From the IMG/VR virus record IMGVR_UViG_3300045538_000127, positions 1-38,322 of that record: DNA of 38,322 nt; one strand, 5' to 3'. Each line of letters begins with the position of its first letter. Positions within the stretch are counted from its first letter, which is position 1. Made by a program: the position numbers and the translations under genes. The DNA is from a virus. Shown here piece after piece: positions 10,954 through 38,322 of the stretch. The notes below the pieces were generated by a model that saw nothing but the letters and a program-made list of their open reading frames with translations, did no database searches and was not told where the DNA came from.

Positions 10954-11784
10954 ATGGGAAGTAAAGAAGTTAAAACACCGCCGCCTAGAAGTTACCAGCA
11001 GGAAATGATGGACGCTATGTCGGCACAGGAGGCCATCCAGCCTCGTCTGTTGGCATTAGAACAGCAGTATCTGCCTATGTACCAGAAACTCCAGCAGGAG
11101 ATGATGGACAAACAGTTAGGCTTCCAGATGGAGTCTTATCAGAAGGCCATCCCTAAGTCTGCTGAACTTAGCAGTATGTATGCTTCTGCAATGACTCCTG
11201 TGTTCGGGCAGATTGGCGAGCAGTCAATGCAAGCATACAGGCAGGGTCTTGGTTCTGAAACTATGGGTCTGTACGACCAGATGGTTAAAAGTGCCAATTC
11301 TGATTTACAGGCTGGAAGAGGTCTTACTCCTGAGATGGAGAAACTCGCACAGCAGTCTTCCAGACAGGCTATGGCGGCTAGAGGTCTTACTGGCAACCAA
11401 GCGATTGCTCAGGAAGTTTTAAACTCTTACCAGATGTCTGATGCCCGTGAAAACAGGGCTAGACAGTTTGCTGGAAGCGTGTACGGAGTAGGACAGCAGA
11501 ACCTTGGACAGGCAATGTCTATGTATGGTAACTCCATGATGACACAGGCCAATGCGTACTCTCCTGCCAATATGTACGGCAACGCCTACAATATGTCTCA
11601 GGGCTTAGGTGCTCAGATTTTCCAGCCCGAGTCTCAGTACAACGCTCAACTTATTTCTGCAAACCGCAAAGAACAGATGGACGCTCAGATTGCCAACGCT
11701 CAGAATTCTGCTGGCATTATGGGTGGTCTTATCGGAGCGGCTGGCTCTTTCCTTGGAACAAAGGCTGGAGCGGCTATGATTTGA
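10954..11784 (+). CDS. Internal virion (ejection) protein, small
   Basis: A 276-residue protein rich in Gln, Met and Ala, mostly helical, with no Cys or Trp. Residues 20-110 form long amphipathic helices (LLALEQQYLPMYQKLQQEMM). The C-terminus holds a glycine/alanine hydrophobic segment (IMGGLIGAAGSFLGTKAGAA). Helical Q/M/A-rich proteins with a C-terminal glycine-zipper-like membrane segment, encoded after the tail genes, are typical of podoviral ejection proteins such as T7 gp14, which enters the outer membrane of the host during infection. The assignment is from composition and position. Confidence 0.7.
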   Translation: MGSKEVKTPPPRSYQQEMMDAMSAQEAIQPRLLALEQQYLPMYQKLQQEMMDKQLGFQMESYQKAIPKSAELSSMYASAMTPVFGQIGEQSMQAYRQGLGSETMGLYDQMVKSANSDLQAGRGLTPEMEKLAQQSSRQAMAARGLTGNQAIAQEVLNSYQMSDARENRARQFAGSVYGVGQQNLGQAMSMYGNSMMTQANAYSPANMYGNAYNMSQGLGAQIFQPESQYNAQLISANRKEQMDAQIANAQNSAGIMGGLIGAAGSFLGTKAGAAMI

Positions 11785-12584
11785 TGAACAAACTGGAAAA
11801 AACAATAGAACTAATCCGTGCAGGATTGGCTGTCCCTAATCGTTCTGCCTTGGCTTGGTCTGGCGGCAAGGACTCTATGGTTCTTTTCCACATCCTTCAT
11901 ACATTAGGAATAAAGATGCCAGTGGTGTTCTTCAAGGAACCTTGGCAACCAGTTAAGTATTCGTTCCAGAACAAGGTCATTGAAGACTACGCCCTTGAAG
12001 TGTACTCTTGGCATCCTTGCAGTTCTACATTCCAGCAGTCTGGCGATGAGTTTGAGGTTCAGAATGTGTATGGCATAAACACATCTACAGTCACTTGCCC
12101 TACGGGCATAACGCCTCCCGAAGAAGGGAAGCCGTGGGTCTGTGCCATCGACATCCTCAATCGTCCTAAGCAGTTAAACATTCAGGCCAACTGGGATATG
12201 CTGTGGATTGGTCATAAGGGATGCGACAGCGACCCTATCCTTGGAGGAGATGCTGGCACTAGAATACACGGCAGATTTGGTCAGGGCTGGATGAACTTCA
12301 TGTTCCCTCTTCGTGATTGGTCTCACGAGGACATATGGGAATACATCGAGGCCAACGATGTGCCTTGGGATAAGAACAGATACGAAAAGGTAGACGGCAA
12401 GTATCGTGAGAAGGCAGACAAATCCTTCAATGTGGACTATGTCCATGCCTGTACTGCCTGTATAGATAAGAGACCTACAGCACCAAAAACAGTTTACTGT
12501 CCTAAGTTCAAGGGGGTCGTTGAGAATGCGTCCTCTAGGTATCCTTGGGCAGACCAAACACCACTTTCTTACATGAGAGACTAA
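11784..12584 (+). CDS. PAPS-reductase-family PP-loop protein
   Basis: A 266-residue enzyme. The PP-loop ATP/adenylyl-binding motif SGGKDSMVL lies at about residues 25-33, followed by the FFKEPWQPVKYSF segment seen in phage members of the phosphoadenosine phosphosulfate reductase family. Later come WIGHKGCDSDP, a PLRDWSHEDIWEY helix and a C-terminal CTAC...YCPK cysteine cluster. The CysH catalytic ECGLH-type end is not seen, so sulfate reduction is doubtful; sulfur transfer to nucleic acid or another PP-loop reaction is possible. ATG 11784 overlaps the preceding TGA (TGATG); an in-frame TTG at 11781 is less likely. It is embedded among internal virion protein genes. Confidence 0.78.
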   Translation: MNKLEKTIELIRAGLAVPNRSALAWSGGKDSMVLFHILHTLGIKMPVVFFKEPWQPVKYSFQNKVIEDYALEVYSWHPCSSTFQQSGDEFEVQNVYGINTSTVTCPTGITPPEEGKPWVCAIDILNRPKQLNIQANWDMLWIGHKGCDSDPILGGDAGTRIHGRFGQGWMNFMFPLRDWSHEDIWEYIEANDVPWDKNRYEKVDGKYREKADKSFNVDYVHACTACIDKRPTAPKTVYCPKFKGVVENASSRYPWADQTPLSYMRD

Positions 12585-12588
12585 TTAT

Positions 12589-14586
12589 ATGGCTTCACCT
12601 TTCCAAAAATACCAGAGCGGAATTCAGGCTTCTACCGAGAACTTAGTTCCTGCGTTTGGACGAATGGCAGAACAGACAACTGCCAACCTTACCAACCTTG
12701 GCAAGAACCTTGGAGATGCTCTTACCAAGTATCAGGACGCACAGGAAGAGCGTGACGAACTTGCTCAGGTCGCTCAGTCCGAACTGTCCAAGTATGTCGT
12801 TCCTGACCTTTCTAACTCTGACGACAAGGACAGATTTAAGGCTTCGGAAGATGCTCCTCAGCATTCTGCCGACCTTATCAACATAGCCCTTAAGGAGGGT
12901 GACGGCGATGTAGCCAGAGGCATGGCGGCTGTCCCGATGAGCAAACTCAAGGGATGGTACAACGCCGACGCTAGGTATCAGAAGGCCGTACAAATAAAAG
13001 CAGAAAACGACTTTAAGGACAGAGAATTAAAACTACGCAAAGATGCTAATGCGGTTGCCATAGCCGCTCAGGAGTTAGCAAAGAAAGAATACGAATTAAG
13101 AAAGTCTGAGGCCGACAGAAAGGCACAGGAAGCCAAGGAAGAGAAGGCTAAGTTAGACCTGTTCAGAAGAAGCACAGACTTAAGCGGTGTCCCTACCACA
13201 ACACAGGTCAGGGAAACTCAGGCTACCACGATTGAAGAAATTGGTGACATCTTCGACAAAAACGGAGAACTTATTGCTTCGAATGTGATGCTCCAAGATG
13301 GCATGAAGGCTCTTGGATTAAAGCCTGAAGATGTTATTACTGAGGCTCAGGCCATTGCGATTAGAACAGAAGGTACGGAAGGCTTTAAGTTTAACGCTGT
13401 CGGCAAATACCTTACTCAGAACGACAAGTATAACCACAAGGCCACATTCTCTGAAGCCATTCAGAACGGCTATGCCGAGTCTTTTATTCGCAATGCGTTT
13501 AAACAGGCTAACGCATGGTCTCTTGAAAAGACAGGTAAGGAACTGACAGGAGTTGAGGCTTTGTTTCCTCAGGGTCTTGACGGAACTATAAACAACACGG
13601 CTAAGGCATATGAACTTGCTGTAAAGTACTCTCAAAATCCTGCGTTTGTAGACTACATAAAGGCTCAGGGTGTGAACATGATACCCGATGGTGCGGCCTT
13701 CAACAAGGCTTACTACACAGTCACGGGTAAAGAGTCTTACAGCCCCACTGTAATTCACACTGTCGGATTAAACGAAGCCGCTCGTCTTAAGATTAGATAT
13801 GACGAGATAGCCGCCGCCTCTGGAGGTTCTGATAAACTGCCTCTGTCTCTGTATCAGATTATGGCGATGCAACCAGACAGGTTCTTGCCTTCTGCTGAAA
13901 TCACATTGCCCGATGGTTCTACGCAGAGAGTGTATAAGGCTGGCAAGGATTGGGTTCCTGCCACATCTCTTGTTGGTCTTGGTGAGCGTGGTACACCTGA
14001 TACAGAAGCAGGACTTAACATTGCCTCCGCAGATAGATGGTTAAGAAACTTCAACAAGCCGCAACAGTTTGGTAATATTACTGTTCAGTTTGTTGGTGGA
14101 ATTAACAACTTTGCAGGCAAGTGGTCTGAAGATTATCCCATTCTTAAACAGGGCTTCACTGATGTTGAACAGACTGGTAAAATAGCCAATGAAATGAGGC
14201 AGTATGTGAACAAAGGACTGCTGTCTAAGGTCATGGATGTTGAAGCCAGAAACCGCTTTGACTCTCTTGTGATGAGAGCCACTACATACAGAAGGTACTT
14301 TATTGCTGGCGGTCAGGAAACAGAGCCTGATGCCCAGCGTCTCTTCGACATTGTTGGTGCAATGAACACTTCTAGAATGGTGTTTAAGGATGCCCACCTT
14401 AAGGCCATTGATGCCTTTGAATCTATTCTTAGAGACAAGGTCGTAGGCCAAGCCAGACAGAACGGCTTCCGTGTAGCCGTCAACAAGGCTGGTGAAAAGA
14501 TTGACCTTAAGAAGATTATTGCGGATGTTGAGGCCGAAAACAAAAAACAGGGCTTAAACACACCCGCTCCCGCATCCTCTAAATAA
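12589..14586 (+). CDS. Internal virion (ejection) protein, medium
   Basis: A 665-residue, mainly helical and charged protein. Residues about 1-60 contain helices rich in Ala and Gln. Residues about 140-190 form a long Lys/Glu coiled coil (RKAQEAKEEKAKLDLFRRS). The rest alternates helices without membrane segments or catalytic motifs. Position between the small ejection protein and the giant protein matches the T7 gp14-gp15-gp16 order, in which three internal core proteins form the channel that carries DNA across the cell envelope. It is therefore best read as the gp15-like member. The gene ends with a TAATG overlap into the giant gene. Confidence 0.65.
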   Translation: MASPFQKYQSGIQASTENLVPAFGRMAEQTTANLTNLGKNLGDALTKYQDAQEERDELAQVAQSELSKYVVPDLSNSDDKDRFKASEDAPQHSADLINIALKEGDGDVARGMAAVPMSKLKGWYNADARYQKAVQIKAENDFKDRELKLRKDANAVAIAAQELAKKEYELRKSEADRKAQEAKEEKAKLDLFRRSTDLSGVPTTTQVRETQATTIEEIGDIFDKNGELIASNVMLQDGMKALGLKPEDVITEAQAIAIRTEGTEGFKFNAVGKYLTQNDKYNHKATFSEAIQNGYAESFIRNAFKQANAWSLEKTGKELTGVEALFPQGLDGTINNTAKAYELAVKYSQNPAFVDYIKAQGVNMIPDGAAFNKAYYTVTGKESYSPTVIHTVGLNEAARLKIRYDEIAAASGGSDKLPLSLYQIMAMQPDRFLPSAEITLPDGSTQRVYKAGKDWVPATSLVGLGERGTPDTEAGLNIASADRWLRNFNKPQQFGNITVQFVGGINNFAGKWSEDYPILKQGFTDVEQTGKIANEMRQYVNKGLLSKVMDVEARNRFDSLVMRATTYRRYFIAGGQETEPDAQRLFDIVGAMNTSRMVFKDAHLKAIDAFESILRDKVVGQARQNGFRVAVNKAGEKIDLKKIIADVEAENKKQGLNTPAPASSK

Positions 14587-17500
14587 TGTCCGAACTTACA
14601 TTTAGTAACCAAGAAGAACTCAGAAAACTCGCTCTTGCCAACGGCCTTATACTGCCGTCTCAGCAGAAGAAAGAGGACTCTGAAATCCCGCTCATTCCTG
14701 ACGGCGATGTAAACATCCCGCAAGAACCTGAAGACGAGGGGATGATTGTTGCCGAGAAGATTAGGCAGTTTACAGGAGTCGGCTACAGACCTACATACGA
14801 AGAGGCCATCAAGTACAAGAGGTTCATGGAACAGCAGGAAATTTCTGCTTGGGCTATGATTGGACAGGCCATCGAGCAGACTGCTTCTGACCTTTCGAGT
14901 GCCGCCTTATCCCTTGCTGGCGATACTCTGTCTTTGAAACTTCCTAAGGTTGCTGGCTCTGTTGTCGAAGGTGCGGCTCTTGGTACTAAGAACTGGTACT
15001 ACATGATGGAAGAGGCCAAGTACAACGAAGCCTCTCCTATCCACAAGTTACTTTATAAAAAGACAGGTAGTGACGAAGAGTACTACTACAATCTCACGAA
15101 GTTGTTAGATGTTCGTGAGAAGATGGAACGAGACATTAACGAAGGCATCCTGCTTCCTAAGGAAGTTGAGGTTGCTGGTGTTAAGTTAGACCTTTGGAAC
15201 CCCGCTACTGTGATGGGCATTTCTTATATTGCCGACCCCAGTTGGGTTACGCCTAACCTTGGCATCGAGTCTGCCCTTGCGAAGGGTATGCGTGGTGCGT
15301 CCAAGGTCATGGCTCTTAACGAGCAGTTGGCGAATGTCGCCGTCTGGTCTTCCAAGCAAGCGGAACTTGCGGCTGGCAAGGTTCAGAAGGGTTCTTCTGC
15401 CTTAGCCAATCAGATTGTCAAGACCGAGGAAGCCCTGATTAAGAACATTGAAGATGTCACAGGCCAGAAGGTCTTCGTTGGTATTTCTGGTAACATCGTT
15501 GACAGAAACGACCTTGGTCGTGGTGCGATGTCTGCGGCTGGTCTTAACGCCGTTAAAATTCCTGCTTGGGGTTTCACGACTCTTGCTTGGGGTGCTTCTA
15601 AGATTACCGAGACTGCGGCTAGTGCCGCTCAGTTGGCGGCTAAGATTGCCCAAGAGCCTACTACACAGTACGGCCTTCGTATGTCTGAGCGTCTTGCGAT
15701 GCAGTCGGACAATGCTTCTGTCCGTGCTATTGCTGGAACATGGGCTAAGACAGGCTCTCCGCTTGTCGAGTGGGCTGGCAATACAACCAGAACCTCTCTT
15801 CACTCTGCCATGTATGGCGGTGCGTTTGGTTTTACCTTTGGCGGTGAAGAAGGCTTTTACCACGGCATAGGCTCTGGCTTCACAATCGGCAGTGCGTTCC
15901 ACCAGATTGGTGCTATACATGGTACTGTCGCTGGTGCTGATGCCCCCCGTGAGGTCATCAAGAACTTCCTCTGGGCTACCGAGGGTTACGATTTTCCTAA
16001 CAAGGAAGGCGTGTTTCGTCTGTTGGCTAATGCAGAAAAGGACTATGGTGCTGAAGCCAAGTTGAAGTTAATGGCAGACATTGCCGCCTCCGAGCGTCTG
16101 CAAAGAGATGTTAAGAAGGTCATCCTGACGGAAGAACGCATCAAGGAAATCATCGGCGAGAACTCCCCTGAGTGGGCTGAGTTCATCAAGGAAGCCAACG
16201 GCAGTCCTGATTTCGGCGGTATTGCGTTCCAGCGTACCTTAGACGGACAGAAGGTTGTCATCATCAACGCCGACAGAGCACACCACTTTGCCGCCAAGGA
16301 AGAACTGTTCCACACACTCCTGATGGACAATCGCTATGGCTTGGAATTCCAACGCCATGCAATGGATGCCCTTATCGGCTCCGAAGACAACAAGGGTGCT
16401 CTGTATAGAGTGTCCAAGGATGATGGTGCTAGAATGCTTGAGACCTTCAGAGATGCATACCTTGGCGTTGAAGACAAGGCTTCTAACGGAGACCCTGAGC
16501 GTATCAATAAGACCAGACAAATCTGGAATGAGGTCATCAACAAGTTCAGAAACGGAGAGACTGACGGACGACTCAACAAGTTGTTCGAAGAATTCTTAGC
16601 GTCCTACTGGGTTTCCTATGTTGACGACAAGCCTATCGACTTCCTGCTTAAGGGCGGCGACCTTGGACTTGTCCGTAACGCCATTGAATTAGCCAAGGAT
16701 GCCTACAAGAACACCATGCACCAAGACCTTAGGGCGGCTGGTGGTAAGTTCGTATTCGGCAAGGAAATTGACGGCTTCTTCACAAACCAGACCACAGGAC
16801 AAAGAGTCCGTATTCCTAAGTTGGAGAAGTTGATGAAGCACTTCGTGGAGCGTTCCAGAAAGGAAATGTACACGGGTTGGGTGCAGAATAAGCGTTCTGT
16901 TACAAGCGTTGAAAAGGCTCTGACTGGAGGTCTTGAGCATCTGGTCATAAACAACGCCGATGGCTCTGCCAGAATTGGCAGTGCTGACGAAGTGTCCAAG
17001 AAGGTAGGCAAGGGTCTAAGGTCTGCTATTGAGGAAATCGCACAACTTGAAGAGAGGGGTCTTAAGTTTCAAGTCATTGGTAAGGACGGCGAAGTAAACG
17101 CTAGTTTCTCTGCCGCTAAGAACAGCAGAAAGCCTAAGAAGAAGAAAGCCCCTAAGCCTAGCAAAGATGTTCTTCTTGATGAGGATGCGGACACTACGCC
17201 CCTAGATTATACCGCGACAAAGCGTTATAACAAGCACTGGGAAGAACAGGCCGAGGCTTTAGCGGAACAAGAGAAGGTTCCGATTACGAACAAGGAACTT
17301 GCCGCCGCTGAACAAGTGGCTGGAGAAGCCCCTGACATGGGTGGTTGGAGCACCGACAAGAGAAAGAAGTTCTGGAAGAGCGTCTGGAACGGCAACCCGA
17401 GAATTAAGATTACAGGCGTGGCGACTAAGAAGGAACTCGCCATCTTGGAAAAGTGGCTTCCTTACAGCGTGGTCAACAGGTTCAAGCACCTTAACGCTGT

Positions 17501-20500
17501 CATCGAGATGTCCAGAATGGGTACATTCGCTGGCAATGTCTCCAATATACTTAGAGCCGAAGTAGTCACTCAAACAAAAGGCCCGTACAACAAGGTTGCT
17601 AACAGAGAGGAAGGCCCGTTTACCGAGACACGAAACTTCCAACCTGTCGAACTCAACATCTACTTTGAGCGTAAGAGAAGCAAGGACATGGAAGACGGCG
17701 AAACTGTCTACACTTATGAGTCTGGTGAGCCTAATATGCTCGCCAAGGTCATCGACCATGACGCAATCCTTACCAGAATAGACTACTTCTTTGACGAGTA
17801 TAAGGGAGACATCGACTATAAGGAGGTCAGAAGACTGTTCCAGACCAAGGAAGACCTGTATATTGCCGCCAAGTCCCTGCTTTCGCATTACTCTACATCA
17901 AAAATTGCTGAAGGCGGCATAGCCATTTTCAGAAATGCTGGGGCTGTTTCCGTCAGGGATGCTGGAAGAATGCGTACCATCGTGAATGGTGTGCTTGGCT
18001 TCCATCCTACTAAGACGCAGATGAGGGCTGGCGAGTACGCCAATCCTTGGCATGAACTTCAGATTAGAAAGAGGAGCGAAGATGCTGACCTTCCTGCCGT
18101 CATCAAAGACTTCAGGGTTGACCGCATCGGTCATATGCACTCCAGAGACGGAGAAGGCTTCTTCTACGACCATGACAACGCTCATTCTCGTTCTACCTAT
18201 AACTTCTCTCCTTCCAAGTCTAACAGAGACCATGAAGGCAATCCTATGTCCAAGGCTGAGATGCTGTCCGTTAAGAACAGCGTTTACCGAAACAGGGAAG
18301 GTGAAGTGCTTTCTGTCTATAGCCTCAAGAAGGCTTTGGGCAATGTAAGAAGAAACAACAGAGAGTCTGTCTTCGACTATGTCGATGAGAGCCTTGGTGC
18401 TGTCATTGACGGCATCAACCCGAGACTCAGAGGAAGACAGTATGTGTCAGAAAGCGGATGGATGCACTACACTCCTGACATGAGCGAGGCTTCGTTCGTC
18501 AGCAGAGGCTCGATGGAGACTGGATACATTGATACTACCAAGCATCTGGACATCTCCAGCGTAGACTATAACTCTACCCCTGACCAGTATATCAGAGCCA
18601 TTGCCGAAGGCATGAGCCGACTGACTGGCAGAAAGTTGGACGAGCATCTCAAGGAAATCTTCAATCTCAGGGATGTCGATGGCTACAAACTGTCCGAAAA
18701 GATTAACGGAAACAGGTCTCCGTTTGAAGCCAAGACGGACATAATCGAAGGTTATATCTTCACAAAGGATATGGCTAAGTACTTCAGGGATAATGACATT
18801 CACTCCCTTGAGTACATCCACTTCAATCCTGTCAGACAACACGCCACCTCTGCCGTGGCTATCTGGGACAATGGTCGTTTCATAGAGAACAGAGCCAGAA
18901 GAAGAGAAGCCAATTACTTTGCGTTCTCTCCTGCCAAGAAGAAAGAGGTTAAGCCTGACGGAACTCTCGCTCCTAAGTCCATGCTTGACCAGTTGGACAA
19001 GCGTCTTGCGGCTACCAAGGCCGCTAACATGGCTAAGGGCATGAACGCTGAAGAGGCCGTTCTTGAGGCGTTCATGGAATGGAAGGTGTCTGAAGACGGC
19101 GAAACCCTTCTCCCTAACACAAAGAGGATTACCGAAAAAGACATAGACAAGATTATTGCCGAAGAAGTCGCTAAGTACGAACAGATACTTGGAAAAGAAC
19201 TGGGTGACAACTTCTTTGACTACGAAGGTAGAAAGAAGATTAACACCCAACTGAAACCTCTCGTTCTTAAGTCGTTGAGAAAGTCTATGCCGTTCGCTCC
19301 TAATGTCATCCTCAACCAGATTGCAGACATCGCTCTTAACGGCATAACCGCCAAGACTGTTGTTGAGAAGAAGTTAAAACTCAAGATTGCTGGTGAGCGT
19401 GGTAGCGGAAGAACTGACGACTACAAGGTCATCAGAGATAGTGTTCTTGCCAGATACAAGAAGCACTACCAGATGTCTGCCGAAAAGATAAACAACGGCT
19501 ACAAGAGTTCTTTGTTTAGGGCTGTTGAGATGAGCGAAGGAGAGTACTCATTGGCTAGAAGAGTACCCGAGTTTATGGACGCTGTCAGGGAAGGAAGACA
19601 GGCAGAATGGATTGCTAATAACAGAGAAGTAATCGACAACCTGTTTGGAGACCACGGCGGTTTGCGTGGTTTTGAAGACATGGTTCAGGGAAGAGAAAAG
19701 GAAATCTTCATCCTGATGGAGAAGGCGTTGCAGACCGAAATGGAAGACACTGGCGGCAACAAGTTCAAGATTATGAACTACAAGGCTCTTGAGGAATTAT
19801 ACGCCGCAAGAACCAAGGAGTTCTTGTTTGAGGCCATAAAAACTCCTTCAAAAGAACGAGGTGAACTTCTCAAGACATATCAGAAGTACAGAGATATGGC
19901 TCAGGAAAAGAGAGACCTACGCTCTAGGTTCAAGTCATACAACGACACCATCAATGCCTTCATCAAGGAAGAATTCAACACTAGAGTCCTCGACACTCTT
20001 ACAGCCCTTGAGATTGACACTAAGTTAGATGAAGAGGTAGTTCAGAATGTCAGAGCATTGATGTACAGAGATGTAAGAAACGGACTGTATAAGTTCGGTT
20101 CTTATGATGCCATTGCTCAGTCGGTCAGATACTACTATGCACAGTCTAACGCCGATGGTAAGAACAAGGTCATCAACGCTAGGCTTGCCGTCCAGAAGAA
20201 CCTGCTGAAGTCCTTGGCAGACCTTGAGGCCGCTGGTTTCGTTGGCATCAACTTCCACAAGATGGAAAGACCTTACGAAATAATTGATGGTCAGAAATCC
20301 TACCTCTTTCACAAGGTAGACATCGTAGACCCTCAGCGTGGAGTCATTGACACAAAGGATGCGTACAATGTCTGGAACTTTGACGGAACTTATTTCAAGG
20401 TCATTGAAGCACCAACAGGTGAAACAGGGTGGGATAAGGCTATCCTCAAGTTAATCGACACAAGAAACGGAAGAGAGGTTCTCACACAGCCTGTCACGAG

Positions 20501-23500
20501 AGACGAGAACGCTGAAAGAACAGCCGTAATCAACAACTTCCTAAGAGAAGCCTCTGGCAGAATGAACAAGGAAGTTCCTGCTACAGTTCTCAACTCTCAG
20601 TTCGGAAAGGTAGACGGCCCGATGAAGAGTTATATCCTTATTAACCATGAGTTGAATGAGTACAGAGGTGATGTAGATAAGCGTTCTCCTCTGTTCACGG
20701 ATTGGTCGAACTACGACCTATACAAGAACGGAAATTACTTTGTCGCCATCAGAAAGTGGAATACTGAAAGTGCCGACATCAAGACTCTTGAAAGAATTAA
20801 TAAATTGAAGGACGACATCTCTCGTGGCTTTGAGATTATTGAGAGAAAGAAGAACGGCAAGACCATCAAGACCAAGAGAGAATTCTCCATCGAGGAGATT
20901 GTTCAGAAGCGTGAGCAGGTCACAGAACTTCAGGGCAAGGTAAACAAGGACAGAGGCATCATCCTTGAGGTGGACAACATCGGAAGAGTCACGAAGATTG
21001 GTTCTCCGCACACCCTGCTTGAACAGAGCAAGGCTCTTTCTGCCCTTAAGAAGGGCAAGATTGAGAACTACGCCTTACAGCACTATGTCACAGAACTGTT
21101 TGCAGACTATGTGAAACTTGAAGGCACGATGCGTAAGAAACAGGCTGATAAGATTGCCGAAGTCTTAGGCACAGGTGAGAACGGCAACATCGCCAAGATT
21201 AAGAAACTTGAAAAGATACTCCGTGAGGCTGAAACGGAACTTCAGACTGCTGTGAATTCTAAGATGCGTGAGATGAACAAGCAACTTAAGGATGCTGGCA
21301 TCAACAGAGAGGTCACAGCCCTTGAAGCCTATCGGAGAATTGAGATGGACTTGGACAGTCTTAGAAAGAACTCAGACAACGCCATGAAGCGTCTTACCGC
21401 TCTTGAGAATGTGTTGTTTACGGAGGGTGCTTTCCCTGAGTACCAAGCAATGTCTCCAGAGCAGAAGCGTCTGTTCGAAGAAAGAATTCAAAACAGAGGT
21501 GAAGAAGGAGAGTGGGTGCAAGACCCGATGACTGGAAAGTACACTTGGACTGTGACTGATTGGGTTGCCCAGAATGCGGCTAAACTTCCGAACGAAAGCA
21601 GAATTGAATACGCCACCAGACTCAGAAAGGAATACGCCAAGCAAAGAAGTCTTCATGCAGAGTACTCCACCAAGTTCGAACAACTTTCTGAAATCATAGA
21701 CAGAAAGAAGAGCACTCTGATGGATGTGGAGGAGCAGTTAGAGTTCCTCGTCAGACAGTACGGCTTGGCTAAGGGACTAAAAATTAGCAAAAAGACTGCA
21801 TTGTCCCTTATCGAAAAGTCCAAGAAGGGAGATGACCTTGTTGGTCTTTCTACCATCAACATCAGCAAACTTAAGAACTTCACGGGCAAGAAGGTCGAGC
21901 CTGTGTACCTTCCTGATACAGAAGGCATCATCCCAGACAAGAAGGGTCGTACTGGCATCCCTGAAAAAGGAGAAACTGTTGAAGACCTGCGTAAGATTTT
22001 TGCCAATGTCTTGGCGAATGTCTCTGGCAACTGGCACAGTATGTCCGACTCCGTGATGCTTATTAACACACTTATCGAGCGTCAGGGCATCCTAAAGAAC
22101 AGAGGTCAGTACAAGGAAAAGCCTCCTGTCAGGGAAGACTTTGAGTCTCCTCGTCAGTTCGAACAGGCGTATGAAGACTGGAACTCCAGAAAGACTGCGT
22201 ATGAGTCAAACTACCTACAGATACTTGGAACTATAGAGTCTTGGGGTAAGGACAAAAAGACTGGCTTAGACAGGAAGTCATTCAGCCAGAGACCTAACAA
22301 GCAGGTCAACCAGCGTATTGCCAAGTTGATGCAGGACGAACTTGGTGAGATGAACGCCATGCTTGGAAAGGCCATGCGTCTTGCCAGAGAAGCCAAGAAC
22401 AACGCTGAGTTCAACTTCAACGCTGAGTTTGAGTCCTTCCTTACCAGTGCCACCAAGTTGACAGGCAAGCAGGAGGGCTGGGTTAGAGACCCGCTCAACA
22501 GACAGCGTGTCAATGAACTTCAGGATGCCTTCGCAAGGGGTGATATCACTGAAAACCAATTGATTGAGACCATTCAGAACGAGGCTTATCTGTCTGCATA
22601 CGGAGAAGAGGGTGTCGAACTGATGAGAACCGATGAGGAACTCCAGTTAACAAGAACCAGAATTGCCGAGAAGATGGACAGAATAGACAGCATCGAGTTC
22701 GGCAAGTACAGGGAGAAGTATGACCCTAACTTCGTGTACAACGAGGAGAACGCCAAGGTTACAATCGATAAGATAAACAAGGACATCGATGACCTTAAGA
22801 TGACAGAGAGTGCTCTGCTCATGCGTCTTGATGACATCATCGCTGGGGTTGAAAGAGCCAACGCCTCCAACAGATACCAACTTGCTTTCTCCAGAAACGA
22901 GCACAACAACCAGCGTATTGCTAATAAGCGTTTCCTTATTGAACAGTGGAAGGAAGCGGTTGATGCCGATGGTAGTTCTGAAAACAGAAAGGGTCTTATT
23001 CAGGCTCAGAAAGAACTCGAAAGCCTCCTTCAGATTAAGGACACGCTTGAAGCCGAGATGCGTAAGACGGAAGGCGACAAGGATGTCGTGGTTCTTGACG
23101 ACAAGAAGTCCCTGTACAACTCCTCTGAGTTTAGAGAACTCGTAGACAGGGTAATCGCCTCCAGAAAGACGGACGAACAGAAGGAAATACTTAGAGTCCA
23201 GAGAGTTAAGGAGCGTATCGAATTGGCTAAACTTTGGGCTGAGGATTATAAGATGTTCCTCGATATGTTCAGGCAGGACGCTCTGGAACTTGGCCTCAAA
23301 GACCCGAACATCGTTGTCAGTGCCAACAACCCTAGAACCAGACACCTGTTCAACGCCTTCCCTAGGATTTCCTACGACCTGTACGGAAGTTCCCACCCGC
23401 TTGATTGGAGCGGTAGCGGATACGAGATTGGATACACAGAAAGAGGCGAGCAGATTGTCCGCTTCAGGGGTGGTCAAGACCCTGCTGGCCTTGTAAACAG

Positions 23501-25520
23501 AAGCCAGACCGAGTCTGCCAGACGGATGTTTACTGTCGCAGACTATATGTTCTTCGCCAGAAAGAGAGCGGACTACCACATGGCTAATCCCGATGCTCCT
23601 ATGAATGCGGAAGATTACCTGCTCATTACGCATCTTGTTCCCAAGAGCAGATATGTTCCTACCGAGCAGAAGGTTGCCACAATCAACAAACTTGAACTTG
23701 CGAACAAGCGTAGGGTTGCCAACGGCATATTGGATAATGTCTCTCTTCCTGAGAACAGACAGAAGTTCCTCAGGTCGTTCGTCAAGGATGGCCTGTCTCT
23801 GGTGATGGGAAGCAGGGGAGAAAGACTCCGTGCTCTCCAGAGAATAAGCGGCTTGGACAACGATGCTTGGAATAAGAAACTTCTTACGATGTCAGAGGAG
23901 GAAATACTCAAGGCCGCTTCTACGAGAGAAGTGGTCGAGAACGCCTTCTACTGGATTACTGACGGCTACATCCCGCTCAGTGATGCCACGAAGAAGACTG
24001 TGATGCTTGAGCGTAAGGATGGCACTAAGACTTCTATCAGGACAGAGACAATGGATGTCCAGCGTCTCATCGAGTTCGAAGAGTTTGCTACCTTCATGGA
24101 CGAAGAACTGTCTGCCGCCAAACTGACATCTATGTTCGACTCCATGCCTTACGCCAAGGCTCAGTACGAGATGCTTGCCCCTGAGGACAGGATGGGTCTG
24201 AACATGGATGCTTTCCAGCGTCTGGCAATGGACAACAACGCCGAGATGCTTAGGTATCAGCGTGAGCAGTTCCTTGCCAGAGGAAACAAGCCTGTCTGGT
24301 TCGCCGATAGGTTCCACGAAGCCAAGCACACGGGCAAGAGCACGGACTACCAGATGCTTGAGCAGGAAAGAATTGGAAGACTCATTGCCCAGACTGCGGC
24401 TGTCGAGTCGTCCATCCAGAAGTACAAGGGTGACCTCACAGGCTTTATGAAGCACCGCCCTGCGGCTGTGCGTAATATGCTTGGTCTTAAGGACGGACTT
24501 CACTTCCCTGACCTTGTGTTCAGGGAAACAGATGGCATAGTCACACAGGCTGACTCTTGGAAGGAGTCCACTGACGGCAGGTACATCATCCAGAGAGTAG
24601 CCACCGAGAAGAAGGGTGTTCACTACAAGTTATACTTCATCGGCGAGACAGTTAAGAACGCTGACGGGGCTACCATGTACGAAATCCCCACCACACAGTT
24701 GGGTAACTTCGGTGAACTTGACCAAGCCCAAATCATGGCTCGCTTCTACGAGGATGACATCCAGCGTATCAAGCAGACCGCTTCCTATGTGTCTGGTGGC
24801 GAAGGTGCGTTCGACTCCCTTAGGGTTGGCGATGTGCTCCTTGCCAGAGAGGGTGCTGGTGCTGTCCTTAAGTCTGCCTATGACGCACCTGCCTTCTCCA
24901 AGGCTGTGATTGCGGCCTTCAAGAAGGCCAAGGCCAAGCCTGAGAATGTAGCCGACATGGAGACAGTCCTCAGACCGCTCTATAACTTCGGTGAGACACA
25001 GCGACTGGTATGGAGTACTGCCAACGGCAAGCCCATGCAGAGGGAGTTCGTCATCACGCCTCGCTCCGAGGGTATACTTAGCAAGTACTACTACAGGGAT
25101 GTAGCCGCTGACGGCGTGGTCAAGTGGACACAGAAGCCTCGCAAGGCCAATGATGGTGCTCAGTCCGACCCGACTGTATCGGTGGACAGCAATGCTCAGA
25201 CCGAACAGCAGAACCCCAGCACCAACACCAAGCCTGACGCTAACACAGAGCCTACCCCTGAGGATAAGATTGTTACCGACTCCACGGAGTTCACCATCGT
25301 CCAAAACAAGAGCAAGGACGGCGAAAGGTTTGAGCAGTGGGAAATCCTTAGGAACCGACTGGGCTACCAGATTATTAGGCTCAAGGACAAAGCCGCTAAT
25401 CGTGATGTGTTCAAGTTGTTTAACGCAACCTCAAACTATCTTGGTCAATATTACGATGAGATGGATGCTGTTGAAGAAATTCTACAACAAGAGTTCAAGA
25501 AACTGTACGGCAATGAATGA
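14586..25520 (+). CDS. Giant (3,644-residue) internal virion / polyvalent-type protein
   Basis: One uninterrupted frame of 3,644 codons, over a quarter of the window. Residues about 1-460 hold hydrophobic Ala/Gly-rich stretches (GGAFGFTFGG, GIGSGFTIGSAF) that could contact membrane. Residues 572-576 read EELFH with an FEEFLASYW helix about 90 residues later, resembling a degenerate HExxH zincin. A Lys/Pro-rich linker lies near residue 850. Around 1100-1450, segments such as FHPTKTQMRAGEYANPWHE, YNFSPSKS, VYRNREGEVLSVY and NYFAFSPAKKK recall large polyvalent proteins of phages and mobile elements. Residues about 2050-2300 and 2600-2850 are coiled coil. The C-terminus has a low-complexity Gln/Pro/Thr linker and a final compact domain. 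By position it equals the largest ejection protein. No RNA polymerase motifs were found, so an N4-type virion polymerase is unlikely but not excluded. Confidence 0.75.
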   Translation: MSELTFSNQEELRKLALANGLILPSQQKKEDSEIPLIPDGDVNIPQEPEDEGMIVAEKIRQFTGVGYRPTYEEAIKYKRFMEQQEISAWAMIGQAIEQTASDLSSAALSLAGDTLSLKLPKVAGSVVEGAALGTKNWYYMMEEAKYNEASPIHKLLYKKTGSDEEYYYNLTKLLDVREKMERDINEGILLPKEVEVAGVKLDLWNPATVMGISYIADPSWVTPNLGIESALAKGMRGASKVMALNEQLANVAVWSSKQAELAAGKVQKGSSALANQIVKTEEALIKNIEDVTGQKVFVGISGNIVDRNDLGRGAMSAAGLNAVKIPAWGFTTLAWGASKITETAASAAQLAAKIAQEPTTQYGLRMSERLAMQSDNASVRAIAGTWAKTGSPLVEWAGNTTRTSLHSAMYGGAFGFTFGGEEGFYHGIGSGFTIGSAFHQIGAIHGTVAGADAPREVIKNFLWATEGYDFPNKEGVFRLLANAEKDYGAEAKLKLMADIAASERLQRDVKKVILTEERIKEIIGENSPEWAEFIKEANGSPDFGGIAFQRTLDGQKVVIINADRAHHFAAKEELFHTLLMDNRYGLEFQRHAMDALIGSEDNKGALYRVSKDDGARMLETFRDAYLGVEDKASNGDPERINKTRQIWNEVINKFRNGETDGRLNKLFEEFLASYWVSYVDDKPIDFLLKGGDLGLVRNAIELAKDAYKNTMHQDLRAAGGKFVFGKEIDGFFTNQTTGQRVRIPKLEKLMKHFVERSRKEMYTGWVQNKRSVTSVEKALTGGLEHLVINNADGSARIGSADEVSKKVGKGLRSAIEEIAQLEERGLKFQVIGKDGEVNASFSAAKNSRKPKKKKAPKPSKDVLLDEDADTTPLDYTATKRYNKHWEEQAEALAEQEKVPITNKELAAAEQVAGEAPDMGGWSTDKRKKFWKSVWNGNPRIKITGVATKKELAILEKWLPYSVVNRFKHLNAVIEMSRMGTFAGNVSNILRAEVVTQTKGPYNKVANREEGPFTETRNFQPVELNIYFERKRSKDMEDGETVYTYESGEPNMLAKVIDHDAILTRIDYFFDEYKGDIDYKEVRRLFQTKEDLYIAAKSLLSHYSTSKIAEGGIAIFRNAGAVSVRDAGRMRTIVNGVLGFHPTKTQMRAGEYANPWHELQIRKRSEDADLPAVIKDFRVDRIGHMHSRDGEGFFYDHDNAHSRSTYNFSPSKSNRDHEGNPMSKAEMLSVKNSVYRNREGEVLSVYSLKKALGNVRRNNRESVFDYVDESLGAVIDGINPRLRGRQYVSESGWMHYTPDMSEASFVSRGSMETGYIDTTKHLDISSVDYNSTPDQYIRAIAEGMSRLTGRKLDEHLKEIFNLRDVDGYKLSEKINGNRSPFEAKTDIIEGYIFTKDMAKYFRDNDIHSLEYIHFNPVRQHATSAVAIWDNGRFIENRARRREANYFAFSPAKKKEVKPDGTLAPKSMLDQLDKRLAATKAANMAKGMNAEEAVLEAFMEWKVSEDGETLLPNTKRITEKDIDKIIAEEVAKYEQILGKELGDNFFDYEGRKKINTQLKPLVLKSLRKSMPFAPNVILNQIADIALNGITAKTVVEKKLKLKIAGERGSGRTDDYKVIRDSVLARYKKHYQMSAEKINNGYKSSLFRAVEMSEGEYSLARRVPEFMDAVREGRQAEWIANNREVIDNLFGDHGGLRGFEDMVQGREKEIFILMEKALQTEMEDTGGNKFKIMNYKALEELYAARTKEFLFEAIKTPSKERGELLKTYQKYRDMAQEKRDLRSRFKSYNDTINAFIKEEFNTRVLDTLTALEIDTKLDEEVVQNVRALMYRDVRNGLYKFGSYDAIAQSVRYYYAQSNADGKNKVINARLAVQKNLLKSLADLEAAGFVGINFHKMERPYEIIDGQKSYLFHKVDIVDPQRGVIDTKDAYNVWNFDGTYFKVIEAPTGETGWDKAILKLIDTRNGREVLTQPVTRDENAERTAVINNFLREASGRMNKEVPATVLNSQFGKVDGPMKSYILINHELNEYRGDVDKRSPLFTDWSNYDLYKNGNYFVAIRKWNTESADIKTLERINKLKDDISRGFEIIERKKNGKTIKTKREFSIEEIVQKREQVTELQGKVNKDRGIILEVDNIGRVTKIGSPHTLLEQSKALSALKKGKIENYALQHYVTELFADYVKLEGTMRKKQADKIAEVLGTGENGNIAKIKKLEKILREAETELQTAVNSKMREMNKQLKDAGINREVTALEAYRRIEMDLDSLRKNSDNAMKRLTALENVLFTEGAFPEYQAMSPEQKRLFEERIQNRGEEGEWVQDPMTGKYTWTVTDWVAQNAAKLPNESRIEYATRLRKEYAKQRSLHAEYSTKFEQLSEIIDRKKSTLMDVEEQLEFLVRQYGLAKGLKISKKTALSLIEKSKKGDDLVGLSTINISKLKNFTGKKVEPVYLPDTEGIIPDKKGRTGIPEKGETVEDLRKIFANVLANVSGNWHSMSDSVMLINTLIERQGILKNRGQYKEKPPVREDFESPRQFEQAYEDWNSRKTAYESNYLQILGTIESWGKDKKTGLDRKSFSQRPNKQVNQRIAKLMQDELGEMNAMLGKAMRLAREAKNNAEFNFNAEFESFLTSATKLTGKQEGWVRDPLNRQRVNELQDAFARGDITENQLIETIQNEAYLSAYGEEGVELMRTDEELQLTRTRIAEKMDRIDSIEFGKYREKYDPNFVYNEENAKVTIDKINKDIDDLKMTESALLMRLDDIIAGVERANASNRYQLAFSRNEHNNQRIANKRFLIEQWKEAVDADGSSENRKGLIQAQKELESLLQIKDTLEAEMRKTEGDKDVVVLDDKKSLYNSSEFRELVDRVIASRKTDEQKEILRVQRVKERIELAKLWAEDYKMFLDMFRQDALELGLKDPNIVVSANNPRTRHLFNAFPRISYDLYGSSHPLDWSGSGYEIGYTERGEQIVRFRGGQDPAGLVNRSQTESARRMFTVADYMFFARKRADYHMANPDAPMNAEDYLLITHLVPKSRYVPTEQKVATINKLELANKRRVANGILDNVSLPENRQKFLRSFVKDGLSLVMGSRGERLRALQRISGLDNDAWNKKLLTMSEEEILKAASTREVVENAFYWITDGYIPLSDATKKTVMLERKDGTKTSIRTETMDVQRLIEFEEFATFMDEELSAAKLTSMFDSMPYAKAQYEMLAPEDRMGLNMDAFQRLAMDNNAEMLRYQREQFLARGNKPVWFADRFHEAKHTGKSTDYQMLEQERIGRLIAQTAAVESSIQKYKGDLTGFMKHRPAAVRNMLGLKDGLHFPDLVFRETDGIVTQADSWKESTDGRYIIQRVATEKKGVHYKLYFIGETVKNADGATMYEIPTTQLGNFGELDQAQIMARFYEDDIQRIKQTASYVSGGEGAFDSLRVGDVLLAREGAGAVLKSAYDAPAFSKAVIAAFKKAKAKPENVADMETVLRPLYNFGETQRLVWSTANGKPMQREFVITPRSEGILSKYYYRDVAADGVVKWTQKPRKANDGAQSDPTVSVDSNAQTEQQNPSTNTKPDANTEPTPEDKIVTDSTEFTIVQNKSKDGERFEQWEILRNRLGYQIIRLKDKAANRDVFKLFNATSNYLGQYYDEMDAVEEILQQEFKKLYGNE

Positions 25521-27510: not shown

Positions 27511-27586
27511 TGGTAGGCGTGGAGGGAGTCGAACCCTCGACTTAACCCTTATAAAGAGTCCACTCTAACCGCTGAGTTACACGCCC
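27511..27586 (-). tRNA. tRNA-Ile(UAU)
   Basis: Read on the minus strand, a full 76-nt cloverleaf folds: acceptor GGGCGTG with CACGCCT, D stem ACTC/GAGT, anticodon stem GACTC/GGGTT with loop TTTATAA, T arm GAGGG-TTCGACT-CCCTC, discriminator A and an encoded CCA end. Positions 34-36 read TAT, which decodes AUA (Ile). The first pair is G-U. Most bacteria read AUA with a lysidine-modified CAU tRNA, so a genuine UAU tRNA-Ile is uncommon and could help phage AUA codons. The isotype is inferred from the anticodon only. Confidence 0.85.
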
Positions 27587-27594
27587 AGTAAAGG

Positions 27595-27667
27595 TGCGGG
27601 AGATGGGAGTCGAACCCACAAAGAGCGGATTTTAAGTCCGATGCGTCTGCCATTTCGCCACTCCCGC
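27595..27667 (-). tRNA. tRNA-Leu(UAA) lacking the long variable arm
   Basis: Minus strand, 73 nt, 8 nt upstream of tRNA-Ile. Acceptor GCGGGAG/CTCCCGC, D arm GCG...CGC, anticodon loop CTTAAAA (anticodon TAA, reads UUA), T arm GTGGG-TTCGACT-CCCAT, discriminator A73. The 5' half closely follows typical bacterial tRNA-Leu, including the leucine-type GCGAAAT start of the D arm. However, only about 5 nt (TCTTT) separate the anticodon and T stems, where Leu tRNAs carry a stem-loop of 10 or more. The anticodon stem has a U-C mismatch at its first pair and CCA is not encoded (CCT follows). It may be degenerate or a minimised functional variant. Confidence 0.75.
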
Positions 27668-30046: not shown

Positions 30047-30054
30047 TGGGAAAA

Positions 30055-30126
30055 TGTCCCTGCTAGGAATTGAACCTAGATATTCTGCTTAGAAGGCAGA
30101 TGTTCTATCCATTGAACTACAGGGAC
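30055..30126 (-). tRNA. tRNA-Arg(UCU)
   Basis: Minus strand, 72 nt. Acceptor GTCCCTG/CAGGGAC, D stem GTTC/GAAC, anticodon stem TCTGC/GCAGA with loop CTTCTAA, short 4-nt variable loop, T arm CTAGG-TTCAATT-CCTAG, discriminator A; CCA is not encoded. Anticodon TCT reads AGA and AGG. AGA is the most frequent arginine codon in many late genes here, so this tRNA likely supports late protein synthesis. It lies between the lysozyme-like gene and the ERF gene in the same transcription direction. Confidence 0.92.
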
Positions 30127-30134
30127 AAGGTCAG

Positions 30135-34112: not shown

Positions 34113-34381
34113 AAAAAAATTACACAAAACCCACGCAAATAAGGTTCCAATTAGGGTAGCGTGGTGGTGTGGGCAGGGTTCTGACGCTCACGACTCCGCA
34201 GGTCTGGGCGGTTTCCAGCCACGGATGGTGTAAGATACAAGTAAGCGGGAAAGCGTCTGCCCCTGTCCTTACCTGTTCAGCCGTGTGTGCTGAACGCAGG
34301 AACTGCTACAACAATTAACGCCAACGCTATCGTTGTCGTAGCGGTTATGCAGTCGCGAGTATCGTGAAACAAAATAAAACC
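34113..34381 (+). other. 269-nt structured non-coding region
   Basis: No convincing gene is seen on either strand. The sequence is GC-rich with several potential stems: TTCAGC/GCTGAA around CGTGTGT (about 34277-34295), ACTGC/GCAGT as an outer pair (about 34302-34354), GCTAC/GTAGC inside it, and GTAAG/CTTAC (about 34241-34272). The segment GAAAGCGTCTGCC onward to TTCAGCCGTGTGT resembles the leader element near 38190. It ends with a G-poor A-rich leader before the next gene. It could be a long structured 5' leader, a small RNA or a regulatory/origin region. Confidence 0.45.
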
Positions 34382-34912
34382 ATGAGCACCAACAAGTCGC
34401 TCTCGGAAATCCGTTCCACCGCCGTCAAGGTCGAAGTCGTTTCGACCTGCGTGTGGACGCACACCGCTCCGCACACGAGCATCGATGTCTTCGAAGGCAC
34501 TCTGCTGTTCGTTCGTGCGTTGCTGTCGTGCATCGCCTACAACCACGACCACAAGGTCATCAGCATCTTCGTCACCACTCGTGAGAGCGGCGACTGGATG
34601 TATCGCCGCCCCTTGGAGGCGAACGACCTTGCTTCGCTCGGAGTCTATCAGTTCTTCTCCGAAGTTCCTGCGATGATGGCGAGGGCGTTCGGCATCCACT
34701 TCCGTGGCTTCTTCAAACTCAGGAATGAAGACTCCCGTGAGGCGATGCTCAACGAACTCACCCACATCGAGGTGGACTTTAATCAGTCCATCGAGCGTGG
34801 CCTGACGGAGTATCGCAACTCCATCGTGTCGTCCAACGACAAGGTGGTCGAGCAGTCAAGCACCATCGCTGACGCTGTCGATGCCCTCAACAACACGAAC
34901 CAGAACTCCTAA
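34382..34912 (+). CDS. Hypothetical early-type protein, 176 residues
   Basis: ATG 34382 (MSTNKSLSEI) is preferred over the in-frame GTG 18 nt upstream because it follows the AAAATAAAACC leader typical of this block. The protein has a strand-rich middle (VEVVSTCVWTHTAPH, HKVISIFVTTRESGDW), a Phe/Met-rich helix and a C-terminal coiled region rich in Ser, Asn and Asp. No family recognised. All eleven Arg codons are CGT, CGC or AGG and none is AGA, unlike the late genes. Function unknown. Confidence 0.72.
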   Translation: MSTNKSLSEIRSTAVKVEVVSTCVWTHTAPHTSIDVFEGTLLFVRALLSCIAYNHDHKVISIFVTTRESGDWMYRRPLEANDLASLGVYQFFSEVPAMMARAFGIHFRGFFKLRNEDSREAMLNELTHIEVDFNQSIERGLTEYRNSIVSSNDKVVEQSSTIADAVDALNNTNQNS

Positions 34913-34925
34913 CGCACATGAGCAT

Positions 34926-34954
34926 CTCGTCCACGACTGGCAATCGTGGGCGAG
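34926..34954 (+). promoter_or_regulatory. Stable hairpin in the leader of the Gp88-like gene
   Basis: CTCGTCCACGA (34926-34936) pairs with TCGTGGGCGAG (34944-34954) as an 11-bp stem with one G-U pair and a 7-nt loop CTGGCAA. It lies in the 73-nt gap between two early-type genes, 31 nt before the next ATG, and is not followed by a T run, so it looks more like a leader structure or processing site than a terminator. Confidence 0.45.
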
Positions 34955-36926: not shown

Positions 36927-36979
36927 TGTGTCATGTGTGAAAGCCGCTACAAACCATCAGGCAAGTAGCACATGACGCA
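36927..36979 (+). ncRNA. Structured leader RNA element, copy 1
   Basis: Upstream of the gene at 37018, an 11-bp stem forms between TGTGTCATGTG (36927-36937) and CACATGACGCA (36969-36979) with one G-U pair. Inside, CTAC (36947-36950) pairs with GTAG (36965-36968), and GCC (36943-36945) can pair with GGC (36960-36962) as a pseudoknot. The internal words GAAAGC, ATCAGG and GTAGCACAT recur in order near 38190. It is followed by about 38 nt of G-free-like CA-rich leader. It may be a riboswitch, protein-binding leader or processing element; the class was not recognised. Confidence 0.5.
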
Positions 36980-37017
36980 TCACCACCAAAACCCAAAATA
37001 CATAACCAAGCACCAAC

Positions 37018-37848
37018 ATGAAAATCCTGTTCTATAAGTTCCTCGGTCTATTTGGCATCCATCGCCAGACAGACTTGCAGATGCTTCGTAACAACCTCGT
37101 GCAAATGAGGAACGATTACGAAACCCGCATCCAGTCTCTCGAGAATACCACTCGCAGACTCGCTGTGATGCTCAAGCACGGCGAAGTCGATGTGACTGTC
37201 AGCGAGCAGACGCTGAAGGAACACTTCCAGACTCTCATCCGTGAGATTGTCGAAGAAGCGTTCGACTTCGAAACGCTGGTCAGCGATTGCATCAACGACT
37301 ACGACTTCTCCGATGCGGTTGACACCGCAATCGGTGACCGAGACTGGGATTACGAACTGCGACACTCCCTCGATTGGGATAAGGTCGCCGAGCGTGTCGC
37401 AGAGAAACTCGATTGGGAAACCATCGTGTCCGATAACGACATCATCACTCGTGGTGATTACGACTTCGATGACATGATGCTCAAGTCAGACCACTTGAGC
37501 GAAGACGACATCGTCACTCGTGACGAACTGTCCGATATGGTCGTAGGCGAGACGAAGCGTGACTGGTTCAAGCAGATGCTCAAAGAAGAAGTTTCTAGCC
37601 TGTTCAAGGATACGCTCCAGCGTGCTCGTGAGACCGAAGAGGACAACTGCCGCAACGCCATCGATGAAGAGATTGAAAACAAAGTCGGCATCCTCATCGA
37701 CGAGCAGTTGCAGAAGAAGTTCGGCGACTCGTTCGACATCTGGTTTCACAATGTCATCGCCCACGGCGTGAAGCAGGTCATCAGCGAGATGATTATCGCC
37801 GCTCACAAGCAGGTGGTCGCCAACGAGGAAGGAGAAGACAATGTCTAA
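37018..37848 (+). CDS. Acidic hypothetical protein with DW/DF motifs
   Basis: A 276-residue protein. Residues 1-60 hold a hydrophobic start (MKILFYKFLGLFGI) and a coiled coil. Residues about 75-190 are extremely acidic and carry recurring aromatic-acidic words (FDFETLVSD, DYDFSDAVD, DWDYELRHSLDWDKV, LDWETIVSDND, DYDFDDMM) like degenerate repeats. The C-terminal third is helical with charged residues. Acidic surfaces of this sort occur in DNA-mimic proteins, but no family was recognised. It is preceded by the first structured leader and overlaps the next gene by 8 nt. Confidence 0.68.
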   Translation: MKILFYKFLGLFGIHRQTDLQMLRNNLVQMRNDYETRIQSLENTTRRLAVMLKHGEVDVTVSEQTLKEHFQTLIREIVEEAFDFETLVSDCINDYDFSDAVDTAIGDRDWDYELRHSLDWDKVAERVAEKLDWETIVSDNDIITRGDYDFDDMMLKSDHLSEDDIVTRDELSDMVVGETKRDWFKQMLKEEVSSLFKDTLQRARETEEDNCRNAIDEEIENKVGILIDEQLQKKFGDSFDIWFHNVIAHGVKQVISEMIIAAHKQVVANEEGEDNV

Positions 37849-38176
37849 TCCTTTCACGCAGGTGGTCGTCTGGCCTCACACGCTCCTTGGCGAGGGTAAC
37901 ACCGAGCAGGACTTCTCGCAGTTCATCACCGACAACTTCGATGCTCGCATCAAGTTCATCGGTGAGCACCGCATCAACGCAGACAGGACTGACCTCCTGT
38001 TCTACATCCACAGCGAAGACATTCCGAAGTTCGCTGTCGCTCGCCTCTCGTGGGGTATGCGATGGCTCGAGGATGTGATGGCGAACGATGGCTCTTACAG
38101 GCCGCCGCTCGACATCGCTCCTACTTGGAACGAAGACGCTATCAACGCCGCCCAGAACCCGAAACTGGACGCTTAA
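37841..38176 (+). CDS. Hypothetical protein, 111 residues
   Basis: ATG 37841 overlaps the end of the acidic gene by 8 nt, with a GGAAGGAG-type Shine-Dalgarno site just upstream (in GAGGAAGGAGAAGAC). The protein has strand-helix alternation (FTQVVVWPHTLLGEG, RIKFIGEHRI, DLLFYIHSEDIPKFAVARLSW) and a Pro/Asn-rich tail. It reads like a compact alpha/beta domain. No family recognised. It is likely to act with the preceding acidic protein because they are translationally coupled. Confidence 0.65.
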   Translation: MSNPFTQVVVWPHTLLGEGNTEQDFSQFITDNFDARIKFIGEHRINADRTDLLFYIHSEDIPKFAVARLSWGMRWLEDVMANDGSYRPPLDIAPTWNEDAINAAQNPKLDA

Positions 38177-38185
38177 CCCAAAACC

Positions 38186-38237
38186 TTTGTGCGAAAGCGT
38201 TGTGCCTTATCAGGTTTCAGCGTGAGTAGCACATAAC
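38186..38237 (+). ncRNA. Structured leader RNA element, copy 2
   Basis: Lies in the 79-nt gap before the last gene. Relative to copy 1 it keeps TGTGyGAAAGC (38188-38198), TATCAGG (38208-38214) and GTAGCACATAAC (38226-38237) in the same order and spacing class. GTGC (38189-38192) can pair with GCAC (38229-38232) and CCT with AGG around TATC; the outer stem is shorter than in copy 1. It is followed by a CA-rich leader (CCCAAAAAGAAACACACAT) and the ATG. Confidence 0.48.
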
Positions 38238-38255
38238 CCAAAAAGAAACACACAT

Positions 38256-38322
38256 ATGTCTCACGACATCGAGAGTGCTGACCTCTCCAAAATCCGTCAG
38301 CAATACGAGAGCGAAACCCTTG
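38256..38322 (+). CDS. Start of a hypothetical protein (3' truncated)
   Basis: ATG 38256 opens a frame running off the window with 22 codons (MSHDIESADLSKIRQQYESE then TL). It follows leader element 2 and a CA-rich, G-poor leader like those before the other early-type genes. Too short to assign. Confidence 0.6.
   Translation, partial: MSHDIESADLSKIRQQYESETL

Follow-up and report, generated by a model that had tools for sequence, protein, structure and literature searches.

Near one end of a phage genome fragment, two unrelated genes are preceded by non-coding leaders that resemble each other, which raises the question of whether such leaders belong to one family of structured RNA and, if so, at which step of gene expression this RNA would act. 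The window, i.e., the whole stretch of DNA analysed, is the entire IMG/VR record IMGVR_UViG_3300045538_000127, 38,322 bases long with one ORF cut at each end. It is apparently part of a tailed-phage genome, encoding an SU10-like major capsid protein, an ERF recombinase, RusA and a DnaC-like loader. A single 3644-aa ORF among the structural genes (14586-25520) occupies nearly 29% of the record, the start of a 267-aa ORF (11781-12584) resembles by eye the PAPS-reductase type (adenine nucleotide alpha hydrolase, SGGKDSMV), and three tRNA genes, namely Ile(TAT), Leu(TAA) and Arg(TCT), lie on the minus strand at 27511-27667 and 30054-30127, Rfam also detecting a tRNA at a comparable position in several of the relatives.

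The blocks TGTGyGAAAGC, ATCAGG and GTAGCACATrAC, on which the original prediction of a repeated structured RNA in front of unrelated genes was based, are present where it had placed them, each of the two end blocks being exact at these two sites only. Both leaders indeed fold to the same architecture, i.e., an outer helix (P1), an internal loop and an inner helix (P2), with the following features.

36927..36979, + strand: class I leader hairpin (fold; covariation in 10 relatives; covariance model R1, E 4e-16)
36927-36938 with 36968-36979: class I P1, followed by GAAA at 36939-36942 opposite A+AGTA at 36963-36967
36943-36945 (GCC) with 36960-36962 (GGC): class I P2, enclosing a 14-nt loop at 36946-36959
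36980..37017, + strand: linker to the ATG of the 276-aa gene, A/C-rich, G-/T-poor, unstructured, without Shine-Dalgarno
37018..37848, + strand: gene for the 276-aa protein, found behind class I leaders in relatives too
38188..38233, + strand: class II leader hairpin (fold; covariance model R2, E 2e-14)
38188-38192 (TGTGC) with 38229-38233 (GCACA): class II P1, with GAAA at 38193-38196 opposite G+AGTA at 38224-38228
38197-38202 (GCGTTG) with 38218-38223 (CAGCGT): class II P2, topped by an apical GCCT/AGGT hairpin
38234..38255, + strand: linker leading to the DUF932 ATG, A/C-rich
38256..38322, + strand: start of the DUF932 gene, cut by the record end, with a full homologue in contig L020

The class I copy folds at -22.6 kcal/mol (z -4.0) and the class II copy at -18.7 kcal/mol (z -3.1). 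The outer stem foreseen for the first copy exists, with 12 bp rather than 11 and a closing U-G, while the GCC/GGC pairing, previously taken for a possible pseudoknot, turns out to be the nested and covarying helix P2. As for the proposed inner CTAC/GTAG stem, it is not kept in relatives, where CTAC becomes CCCA or ATAC, GTAG being part of the invariant AGUA-G strand. The DUF932 assignment comes from L020:11005-11931 (E 1e-23); the 276-aa protein has no match in Pfam or PHROG, and AlphaFold models of this protein and of the 176-aa protein considered below were uninformative, i.e., too poor for a fold search.

To place these leaders among relatives, about 20 related IMG/VR contigs (hereafter designated by L numbers) were collected via the GP88-like, 276-aa and DUF932 proteins together with a DNA pattern of the leader. 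The common core of the family is P1, an asymmetric loop 5'-GAA-N / N-AGUA-3' and P2, whereas the part above P2 varies from a 4-nt loop up to a three-way junction; this same core precedes three early genes, encoding the 176-aa protein (large form), the 276-aa protein and the DUF932 protein. Of the 22 instances tabulated from the three classes, 21 have GAA (the remaining one reading AAA) and all have AGUA, while the helices vary: pairs 3-4 of P1 use four pair types and are nonetheless paired in 22/22, and many changes are independent swaps, e.g., GUGC/GCAC to GGGC/GCCC to UGGU/ACCA in L020 and L046. In class I, P2 likewise changes from GCC/GGC to CCC/GGG or GUC/GAC. A descriptor combining P1 of at least 4 bp, GAA/AGTA, P2 of at least 3 bp and a span of at most 70 matches the + strand of the 38-kb record at exactly these two leaders, where shuffled sequences yield 0.28 matches per strand on average.

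The original prediction had set homologues with compensatory changes as its own test, and these were found in the approximately 20 contigs, with covariation beyond controls and recovery by covariance models. Double-sided changes affect 8 of the 12 class I pairs, amounting to 23 cells, where shuffling gives 8.4 ± 2.2 and sliding of one strand no more than 5; class II has 9 such cells against 3.7 in shuffles, and in the large form 17 of 40 pairs are affected, with 22 cells against 7.4 in shuffles and at most 7 in slid controls; the relatedness of the sequences can inflate the shuffle control, a flaw from which the slid control is free. Covariance models were trained on class I (R1), class II (R2) and the three-way junction (R3). 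At orthologous sites in many records, R1 finds class II (E from about 3e-4 at best to about 4e-2) and R2 finds class I (E 4e-4 to 6e-2), these cross-class values being modest and owed for the most part to the conserved loop and to the GUG/CAC top of the stem. Members outside the training sets were also recovered, namely that of L046 by R2 (2e-4), the class II leader of L020 by R1 (1.6e-3) and an unseen three-way-junction member in the L106 contig by R3 (E 3e-40). As such, the existence and the fold of this leader RNA family are well supported. Searching the window and its relatives against Rfam release 15 at gathering thresholds returned tRNAs only, with no meaningful weak match to the leaders, in line with the earlier view that the element lies outside known RNA classes; a search of the literature on this leader RNA found nothing, and the folded leader is a previously undescribed RNA, absent from Rfam.

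The family is restricted, within the collections searched, to a narrow group of uncultured tailed phages. A near-identity search of phage records gave no match, and a strict DNA pattern of the leader gave none in the viral contigs searched. A looser pattern, for which about 7 matches are expected by chance, matched 23 viral contigs, 19 of them with a class II leader; 18 of these 19 leaders precede a DUF932 start, the other (L116) being cut at the contig end. The matches in L099 and L120 were set aside as chance. Those in L105 (6087-6136) and L118 (6798-6844) were rejected as well; both contigs, at least one of which carries GemA-like genes, share a similar hairpin, GTGC-GAAA...GAGTA-GCAC, that at least in L105 reads better on the opposite strand, where it would cover a GGAGG Shine-Dalgarno site in front of an MFNAIKKF gene. 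The bacterial genomes searched with the DUF932 protein contained no relative of it, and no host was found.

Class II leaders occur in nearly all members of the phage group, class I leaders in L005-L009, L020, L022/L023, L100/L101, L106/L107 and L116, with at most two class I and class II copies per record. Some members are minimal, e.g., ACCAACTCAAC-GAAA-GCAAATGC-AAGTA-GTTGAGTTGGT for class I in L046 and TTTGGGGC-GAAA-GCAATCCCGC-AAGTA-GCCCCGAA for class II in L020, the latter with 8+2 bp only; class I in L020 has 6+3 bp only. The element is dispensable in some phages, since one or more other, different hairpins replace the class I leader before the 276-aa gene in L013-L017, the class I hairpin of L046 lies 138 nt before the start codon, and no hairpin precedes the DUF932 gene in the distant L159. 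Further structures were seen beside class I elements, i.e., a second large inverted repeat with inner hairpins (GTTGGCGTG...CACGCCAAC, L046:9790-9900) following the minimal hairpin in the 138-nt leader, and a second irregular hairpin (GCTGTGCTAC...GTAGCACGGC, L022:10670-10750) directly upstream of the element in L022.

The original prediction also suspected a weaker third relative at 34249-34292. The same internal loop is present there, not within a hairpin of this type but on the 5' strand of a large RNA, the 3' partner of which lies at 34349-34365.

34228..34236, + strand: putative extended -10-like promoter, TGGTGTAAGAT (from an upstream-region alignment; no scan match)
34242..34369, + strand: three-way-junction leader RNA, about 125 nt (RNAalifold; covariation; covariance model R3)
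34245-34248 with 34362-34365: P1, with GAAA at 34249-34252 opposite GAGTA at 34357-34361
34253-34260 with 34349-34356: P2
34262-34266 with 34296-34300: P3
34274-34282 with 34287-34295: P4
34302-34315 with 34332-34345: P5
34382..34912, + strand: gene for a 176-aa early protein, behind the large leader RNA

RNAalifold, applied to the whole intergenic alignment of five phages, placed the unpaired GAAN/NAGUA internal loop between P1 and P2. The junction and loop bases are strongly conserved, and P1 is closed by G-C in L020 versus G-U or A-U in the others. A DNA pattern for this RNA returned the known subgroup and L189, the match in L189 being attributed to chance as it falls inside a coding region. 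In L008, R3 matched the P5 hairpin only (E 0.4-0.6), so that a wider spread of the large RNA is unproven. In relatives, the -10-like site reads GATAAT, TAAAAT or TATAAT (TGnTATAAT type), 6-8 nt upstream of the large RNA, which therefore probably begins at the transcript start. Downstream, the leader of the GP88 gene holds a hairpin at 34926-34954 (CTCGTCCACGA-CTGGCAA-TCGTGGGCGAG) with compensating changes and a CTGRCAA loop in L003, L004, L010 and L020, replaced in L006 and L008 by terminator-like hairpins with U-rich tails; it may act as an attenuator separating the 176-aa gene from the GP88 gene. Conserved as it is, this hairpin was rejected as a family member because it lacks GAA/AGUA, and a flipped AGUA/GAA loop in the L006 and L008 leaders proved to be an unsupported by-eye impression.

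All elements are sense-oriented to the downstream gene. From the end of AGUA to the start codon, the distance is about 17-20 nt for the three-way junction (ATG at 34382), 25-34 nt in class II (all ten members measured) and mostly 45-52 nt in class I; a constant position relative to the start codon, as demanded of a translational operator or enhancer, is thus seen within each class, except for class I in L046. The linkers after the elements are rich in A/C and poor in G/T. A special absence of Shine-Dalgarno signals at the leader genes was considered and rejected: nearly all genes of the record lack one, structural genes included, the exceptions (35753, 36154, 37841 and 2836) overlapping or abutting the preceding gene, so that the lack is characteristic of the phage or host rather than of the leaders. 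The idea that both copies head separate transcripts gained no support: they lie 10-15 nt behind the stop codon of the preceding gene, with nothing promoter-like nearby, and only the large RNA has such a site directly upstream.

The internal loop itself suggests how the leaders may work. The bulged-G (loop E/sarcin-ricin) motif, a structural module of rRNA, riboswitches and ribozymes, has as its consensus GAA opposite AGUA between helices; as far as sequence can tell, the leader loop with its flanking helices matches this consensus, and the single AAA variant is compatible with it. The reading favoured here, with moderate confidence, is that of one cis-acting, protein-bound leader RNA family with a bulged-G module, controlling translation initiation of early cistrons. 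From a constant distance to the start region, which is A/C-rich, unstructured and devoid of Shine-Dalgarno, the rigid GAA/AGUA module would act as the recognition site of an RNA-binding protein, be it a phage regulator or a host factor, and translation initiation of the three early cistrons would be controlled jointly. No candidate binding protein for the leader RNA was identified. Translational control is preferred over processing or antitermination on account of the constant spacing, the sense orientation and the open linker.

Among the alternatives, mRNA processing or stability comes first, although it is unlikely. As in the early region of T7, cleavage by a nuclease near the elements would give the downstream cistron a hairpin protecting its 5' end; this would suit hairpins that fold better than shuffles and the location of two of the three elements between genes of what is probably one operon, 10-15 nt behind a stop codon. 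Both L020 hairpins, with their 8+2 and 6+3 bp, nevertheless fall short of the roughly two helical turns of duplex of an ordinary RNase III substrate, which makes RNase III processing unlikely, and a plain stabiliser requires neither an invariant GAA/AGUA loop nor a class-constant distance to the ATG. Processive antitermination, in which RNA polymerase would be modified by the emerging transcript, either by itself (put-like) or together with a factor (nut-like), with the large RNA as main loader and the internal copies as boosters, is improbable. It is conceivable chiefly for the large RNA, which sits directly behind the extended -10 promoter-like site, because terminator-like hairpins stand between cistrons of the operon (at 34926-34954, in L006/L008 with U-rich tails, and in L013 ahead of the 276-aa gene); against it stand internal copies positioned relative to start codons and the lack of a conserved boxA and of a put-like double stem (PMC9378689). 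Just as doubtful is the notion of a phage-encoded module for starting translation in a host largely without Shine-Dalgarno, i.e., that the bulged-G module, in its three architectures, would bind a ribosomal protein or the small subunit at a defined spacing to the start codon and thereby enhance expression of early phage genes, like a small bacterial IRES.

A metabolite-sensing riboswitch is very improbable, even when limited to the large form, the three-way junction of which would speak for it, since bases in the junction and loops are strongly conserved and the RNA probably lies at the 5' end of a transcript; in the small members, nothing but the internal loop could accommodate a ligand, no metabolic theme emerges from the phage genes downstream, and Rfam gave no match. 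Finally, two similar inverted repeats within one genome could reflect a DNA-level element (operator, recombination site or origin repeat) or a chance duplication of intergenic DNA, a reading excluded in practice by the covariation, P1 being free in sequence yet paired, with G-U pairs in use, while the asymmetric loop always lies on the sense strand of the downstream gene and is the sole feature common to the three architectures.

The leaders add to the RNA repertoire a covariation-supported family absent from Rfam, in which one small noncanonical module is common to three leaders of differing complexity in one phage early operon. They allow coordinated control at the RNA level to be tested in phages of hosts largely devoid of Shine-Dalgarno signals, and the leader RNA can serve as bait for finding the protein that reads it.

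Several known systems invite comparison. Known operators of phage RNA-binding proteins, e.g., T4 RegA and the MS2 coat protein, are leader structures setting the translation of early or regulatory genes and overlap the start region, whereas the leader structure here ends about 13-40 nt upstream of the ATG. With the bulged-G motif, the leaders share, by comparison of sequences, the same 5'-GAA / AGUA-3' loop between two helices, but that motif is a general module and not a phage leader family as found here. RNase III sites of the T7 type are likewise hairpins that lie between early genes and contain an internal loop; the leaders differ from them in having 8+2 bp members, a conserved noncanonical loop and a fixed start-codon spacing. 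The LoaP/dfn leader is a small protein-bound hairpin in a 5' leader (PMC12691694), the UNCG tetraloop hairpin of which is absent here. Also comparable are putL and putR of HK022, i.e., similar structured RNAs repeated in one phage on early transcripts, each put RNA comprising about 70 nt with two stems and a minor-groove triplex and contacting the beta' zinc domain of RNA polymerase (PMC9378689). Compared with that description (PMC9378689), the leader folds do not show two adjacent stem-loops within about 70 nt near an early promoter; they form instead a single hairpin or a three-way junction and are placed by the start codon.
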